A DNA stretch of 64,000 bases from an uncultured Erysipelotrichaceae bacterium (GTDB taxonomy: Bacteria > Bacillota_I > Bacilli_A > Erysipelotrichales > Erysipelotrichaceae): the NCBI GenBank assembly GCA_944327105.1, contig CALVGN010000024.1:1-64000 (forward strand). Reading direction: 5' to 3'. Positions 1,568-1,688 of the stretch are shown here, one piece after another. The notes below the pieces were generated by a model. It worked only from the letters and a program-made list of their open reading frames with translations. It ran no database searches and had not been told where the DNA came from. Positions within the stretch are counted from its first letter, which is position 1. Each line of letters opens with the position of its first letter. Both the position numbers and the translations under genes were made by a program.

Positions 1568-1595
1568 AGCATCAGTGTCTCAAAACACTAATGCT
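1568..1595 (-). terminator. Intrinsic terminator or attenuator directly ahead of the secreted-protein gene
   Basis: On the minus strand the arms AGCATTAGTG and CACTGATGCT (one G-T pair, 8-base loop) are followed at once by TTTTTTG. Only about 28 bases separate it from the start codon at 1539, too few for a separate promoter to fit comfortably. It may simply end murA transcription or act as a leader attenuator. Confidence 0.7.
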
Positions 1596-1644
1596 CACTC
1601 AAAGATATTAATCGTTTGAAACAATTAACTAAGCCATAGTTATT

Positions 1645-1688
1645 GCTTGCTTGCTTGCTTGCTTGCTTGCTTGCTTGCTTGCTTGCTT
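1645..1688. repeat. Tetranucleotide repeat (GCTT)11
   Basis: Eleven perfect tandem copies of GCTT (AAGC on the minus strand), ending in the palindrome GCTTAAGC. It lies between the end of murA and the start of the secreted-protein gene, about 105 bases upstream of that start codon. Tetranucleotide tracts are prone to slipped-strand length change, so this is a candidate phase-variation tract. A TTGACA-like -35 lies upstream on the minus strand (1714-1719), but no good -10 partner is visible. Confidence 0.95.

Follow-up and report, generated by a model that had tools for sequence, protein, structure and literature searches.

A putative phase-variable transcription attenuator based on an AAGC repeat precedes a secreted protein gene in an Erysipelotrichaceae genome

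Results and discussion

Organization of the AAGC locus

Analysis of a 64 kb stretch of DNA from an uncultured Erysipelotrichaceae bacterium (64,000 nucleotides, hereafter the window) indicates that the gene of a secreted protein, P0001, is likely controlled by a phase-variable transcription attenuator, in which the number of AAGC repeats (n) would determine where a ribosome stops on a short leader open reading frame (ORF) relative to an intrinsic terminator. From the sequence anatomy, the frame positions, the recurrence of the layout and the statistics given below, we infer that ribosomes translate the leader, that its repeat number is variable and that the hairpin acts as a terminator.

All elements of the locus are on the minus strand. 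The gene upstream of the leader is murA (1803..3071), of the EPSP synthase family (PF00275, E=1e-89), and the terminator search of the window revealed no clear terminator between murA and P1, a putative promoter recognized by its sequence as an extended -10 element, TGCTAAAAT (TGC-TAAAAT, 1743..1751). P1 is located 7 nt 5' of the leader start codon, a GTG at 1735, and the leader ORF (1640..1735), which is probably leaderless, is also found in paralogues and relatives. Within this ORF, a -35-like TTGACA (1714..1719) is positioned 25 nt 5' of the repeat tract and is followed 17-18 nt 3' by a weak -10-like element, GCACGCT (1690..1696), that adjoins the tract. None of the extended -10, the leader ORF or the TTGACA was part of the initial annotation of this DNA, which had reported eleven AAGC copies on the minus strand. 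The array, detected by TRF at 1643..1688, has 11.5 perfect copies, encodes KQAS whatever the frame and is the sole short-unit array in the window; genome-wide, (AAGC)4 is present at only 3 loci and the reversed control pattern at none.

The tract is followed by an intrinsic terminator (1567..1596), with a 13-bp stem, a 4-nt loop and then TTTTGTTGTC, which we found independently of the initial annotation that had also described it. Folded alone, the hairpin has a free energy of -17.4 kcal/mol (z = -4.7); none of 200 shuffled sequences was as stable. Only 28 nt separate the start of the T run from the ATG of the secreted gene at 1539, so a sigma-70 promoter cannot fit 3' of the terminator, as had been argued before. 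The downstream gene itself agrees with its earlier description as secreted: P0001 (190..1539, 449 aa) has a Shine-Dalgarno (SD) sequence, AGGAG (1545..1549), and a signal-peptide-like N-terminus.

Reading frames of the leader and the proposed switch

The leader peptide read from the GTG at 1735 is VIEKVLDSKIENAARLSKQ(ASKQ)3; its ORF crosses the AAGC tract and, at 11.5 repeats, ends at a TAA (1640-1642). Since the repeat unit has 4 nt, the copy number sets the reading frame, and since AAGC has no stop codon in any frame, the copy number only chooses the frame in which the tract is left. The resulting stop is 43 nt before the hairpin for n=8, 11 or 14, and 32 nt before it, at a TAG (1629..1631), when n is 0 mod 3 (n=9, 12, 15), a state predicted to be OFF. 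When n is 1 mod 3 (n=10, 13), the stop is a TGA (1588..1590) within the 5' arm of the terminator, and the predicted state is ON. Counted from the tract, these stops are at +0, +11 and +52 and the secreted gene begins at +103, so that in the window all three leader frames terminate ahead of it. The assembled copy (n=11) uses the earliest stop and is predicted to be OFF, and the ON state is expected for n=10 or 13. A fusion of the leader ORF to the secreted protein was rejected as a general feature, as only the copy at G000:C39 is open throughout.

In the proposed switch, P1 would produce an mRNA whose 5' end encodes the short leader peptide that includes the AAGC tract, and slipped-strand mispairing would alter n. 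With n equal to 2 or 0 mod 3 (11, 12, 14, 15 and so on), the ribosome would halt 43 or 32 nt short of the terminator, allowing the hairpin to form and transcription to end (OFF). With n equal to 1 mod 3 (10, 13 and so on), the ribosome would reach the stop inside the 5' arm and cover that arm, the hairpin could not form, and RNA polymerase would read through (ON); translation of the secreted protein would then begin at the gene's own SD and ATG. Ribosome-polymerase coupling is weaker in some Firmicutes, an objection against which Streptococcus gallolyticus pil1 shows that such coupling can work.

The initial annotation had offered two choices, either attenuation with read-through or a repeat number that changes transcription or the fold of the leader, as in phase variation. 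The present reading joins attenuation and repeat-driven phase variation in a single mechanism through the putatively translated leader ORF, in which n mod 3 sets the stop 32-43 nt before, or inside, the terminator. A change in leader folding has no part in this reading: the switch would not be exerted via the leader fold or via promoter spacing. The leader was also compared with Rfam and matched no known RNA family, and its assignment to such a family was dropped.

The start of the window leader is a GTG with no SD, which implies that it relies on leaderless initiation or on read-through from murA, and relatives have either SD and ATG or a leaderless ATG. A TANNAT box is present 5-9 nt 5' of the leader start in 7/9 Erysipelotrichaceae leaders (0.66 in shuffles), a spacing that suggests leaderless starts in this family.

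Statistical analysis and evidence for translation

Hairpins below -12 kcal/mol begin 32-64 nt 3' of the tract, despite differing stem sequences. We asked how often one frame stops early (18 nt or more ahead of the hairpin) and another reaches the hairpin, and found this arrangement in all 32 de-duplicated leaders, compared with 22.3+-2.4 for dinucleotide shuffles of the spacer, none of 1000 of which got to 32. The reverse-complement control reached 27/32, making the frame test alone moderate evidence. Restricted to Erysipelotrichaceae, the result was 8/8 against 4.5+-1.3 (p=0.005). The loci from our broad survey of 84,980 genomes were selected for TTGACA; the 12 leaders found free of this condition gave 12/12 against 7.3+-1.5 (p=0.001). 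In addition, 27 of the 32 leaders meet a stop no more than 8 nt from the tract (null 15.1+-2.6). Among 46 de-duplicated loci taken from outside Erysipelotrichaceae and Betaproteobacteria, 33 have an SD and an ATG whose frame stays open into the tract; shuffles gave 2.2+-1.5, with a maximum of 8. As assembled, 28 leaders are in a frame with an early stop and 18 in one that extends to the hairpin, a split expected for switching loci. Both the frame tests and the start-site counts favour a translated leader.

Additional evidence comes from a termite Oscillospiraceae genome (G557), in which an identical start-tract module occurs before terminators (class a) and as a protein N-terminus (class b). 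In class b (L228, L233, L235, L237) the module forms the very start of a lipoprotein and of secreted proteins. All four have a frame that stays open for >1100 nt, and all were assembled with a repeat number that puts the protein out of frame; by sequence, these are cases of ordinary coding-tract phase variation. Because the same module also begins proteins, its ATG is very probably a real translation start.

Related leaders in the family and beyond

The same genome contains two further copies of the layout (G000:C39 and G000:C43), each with a P1-like box, an ATG, TTGACA, an AAGC tract, a hairpin and a signal-peptide gene. At G000:C43, the third AAGC locus (L031 4890-5574), which is near a contig end, the surface-protein gene is broken by stops soon after the signal peptide.

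Searching by AAGC alone, we found tracts in 5/196 genomes of the family, other genera included. In a different genus, the same leader with 23 full copies (L206, G100:C43) stands before a homologue of P0001 with 39% identity over 436 alignment columns. Two loci of that genome (L208 693 and L209 886) have the leader layout with (AACG)6 and (AACG)16 in near-identical flanks, indicating that the layout does not depend on one particular unit sequence and that tract length is labile. Another set with near-identical flanks has about 3, 17, 18 and 23 copies. The length variation seen is that between paralogues and across species, each represented by one genome.

The broad survey, with the pattern TTGACA-N18-32-(AAGC)4, recovered at least 116 stretches across the 84,980 genomes, and the matches listed include Lachnospiraceae, Oscillospiraceae, Ruminococcus, Accumulibacter/Zoogloeaceae, Riflebacteria and others. 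Among them, TTGACA is mostly 22-29 nt from the tract, though 18-32 nt was allowed, and a minority are something else, for example tracts within coding sequences of Haemophilus and Neisseria. No further genome matched among 119 sampled relatives of one matching Lachnospiraceae genome, using a pattern that undercounts because it fits a single start phase of the tract. A phylum sample gave 3/392 matching genomes, a figure that is also an undercount, given that the sample is dominated by one class and that the pattern needed a non-A base after the tract. Judged from these sequences, the distribution beyond the family is sporadic, in Clostridia and others.

By a simple heuristic, 37 of the 40 downstream ORFs have an N-terminal hydrophobic segment, compared with 121/295 background ORFs, and the usual domains of the downstream proteins are BspA-type LRR and InlB B-repeats. 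HsdS and acyltransferase tracts (L130, L131, L080 and L081) were left out of the set, being coding tracts of a different kind. In hsdS-like ORFs, AAGC tracts come after a conserved ..YYRDxLLTYAATG.. (L131 6395, L130 on the minus strand, L115 278) and likely represent phase-variable type I restriction specificity. In L080 and L081 (Faecalibacterium, Oscillospiraceae), the tract is at the start of membrane acyltransferase-like ORFs, which is probably coding-tract phase variation as well.

The secreted protein P0001

The structural model of P0001 (pLDDT 61) weakly points to a protein that probably has a parallel beta-helix core, and comparison with the PDB gave no match with E<0.001. Four proteins of the genome share a Cys-containing C-terminal domain of ~60 aa (GPGWVWSEEANACV-like), encoded at 190-380 on the minus strand of the window, L032 8544-9080, L030 4338-6311 and L033 8201-12916, and all four end in V[ND]T[SA]D[KQR]. 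This domain is possibly a surface-anchoring tail with no membrane segment.

Promoter-like elements and alternative explanations

In the Erysipelotrichaceae-type leaders, which were found without requiring TTGACA, this hexamer is present 22-27 nt 5' of the tract in all nine with the region intact. Relative to the codons of the leader ORF it is read in two different frames (as LT and LD), so the TTGACA and the -10-like element seem to be conserved at the DNA level, and the latter is better in relatives, with a perfect TATAAT in L078 and L107. In G557, TTGACA was found in 5/7 class a and 0/5 class b loci, whose flanks mark them as recent duplicates. In the window it is a possible second promoter (P2) or a pause element. 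It may be that AAGC leaders form a distinct, scattered module (P1, short ORF, TTGACA with -10-like element, tract and terminator) whose promoter-like element is functional, either as a pause giving the ribosome time to catch up or as a second promoter for an RNA that is always terminated, but we hold this extension as tentative and rather doubtful. TTGACA as the only promoter was set aside, because the SD, the start codons and the frame-specific stops would be unexplained. In L083, L088, L097, L116, L127 and L147, the region just after the tract carries TTGACA-17-TAYGCT in mirror image: it is on the opposite strand and points into the tract, like an antisense promoter. This arrangement occurs in some Clostridia, is absent from most loci and was rejected as a general feature.

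The fixed distance of TTGACA, its presence in two codon frames and the perfect -10 boxes would also be explained by promoter-type phase variation, with P2 as the real promoter and transcription starting in the tract; a longer or shorter tract would then alter the initial transcribed sequence or the 5' UTR, and the terminator would be a fixed brake. However, this would leave the leader ORF, the SD and the frame-specific stops without a reason, several G557 loci have no TTGACA, and the tract is outside the -35/-10 spacer, where n cannot alter promoter geometry. We regard this explanation as unlikely. Slightly less probable again is that the terminator serves only murA, whose transcript it ends, with the secreted gene expressed by low-level leak past a neutral repeat. 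The proximity of murA and the lack of a clear terminator before P1 fit with such plain read-through, but the tract, the ~45 nt spacing, the terminator and the signal-peptide gene recur at unrelated loci with different upstream genes, and the excess of N-terminal hydrophobic segments downstream also argues against it.

The combination of leader peptide and terminator is the layout of trp, and a KQAS-rich leader could stall ribosomes in amino-acid shortage, with the repeat number tuning the response. Such a sensing attenuator has no need of frame-specific stops, and the 4-nt units (AACG as well, in two loci) are not codon-sized; on non-systematic inspection, we noticed no conserved competing antiterminator hairpin. 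We consider this reading very improbable, the least likely of those weighed here against the frame-dependent attenuator.

Comparison with known systems

In S. gallolyticus, GCAGA repeats in a leader ORF control the expression of pil1 and pil3 (Danne et al. 2014, PMC3894217). A stop 39-49 bp before the stem-loop terminator gives low expression, and expression is high when an out-of-frame stop falls inside the hairpin or 4 bp ahead of it; the effect requires translation, the leader start and the hairpin, and pil1 was proven by mutants (PMC3894217). The window likewise has a short-repeat tract in a leader ORF, early and late stops (43 nt, 32 nt and inside the hairpin) and a surface structure downstream. 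The repeat unit in the ORF is not a multiple of 3, an upstream promoter is predicted by sequence, and the stops are >28 nt before the terminator or in it. Apart from the ribosome-binding site (RBS), the locus agrees with pil1/pil3 in all that sequence can test, and we therefore count it as a putative new member of the same kind. The two differ in the unit (GCAGA, 5 nt, versus AAGC, 4 nt), in the downstream genes (a pilus operon versus a single secreted protein) and in the leader start (RBS and ATG versus a probable leaderless GTG). Window-type leaders, known here from sequence, also carry the extra TTGACA and occur across several classes; if functional, the promoter-like element would be an extra layer absent from pil1.

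In coding-tract phase variation, as with AAGC in Neisseria meningitidis autB (PMC5118866) and the tracts of Neisseria gonorrhoeae (PMC5320596), copy number shifts a reading frame. In the autB type, the tract is inside the surface protein gene itself, whereas in the window every frame stops before the secreted gene; a tract within a surface-protein ORF in one frame was found only in the four class b loci named above. Nor is the tract between a -35 and a -10 or abutting them upstream, as in promoter-spacer switches, being downstream of both -10-like elements. With trp-type leader-peptide attenuators, the locus shares the principle that the ribosome position on a leader ORF decides terminator formation, but the switch would be a heritable frame change and not amino-acid supply, with no need for an alternative hairpin.

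The open-access literature searched contained no report of this wider taxonomic range. The rule that n mod 3 gives ON or OFF is a simple prediction from sequence alone, usable on gut metagenome reads for surface-protein states. The putative switch module stands before adhesin-like surface proteins in scattered gut and insect-gut bacteria. We judge that what is new here is a different repeat unit and a wider taxonomic range for a pil1-type mechanism of predicted function: what had been demonstrated at a pair of pilus loci in a single streptococcus is predicted, on a different repeat unit, for Erysipelotrichaceae, for Clostridia and probably for Betaproteobacteria.
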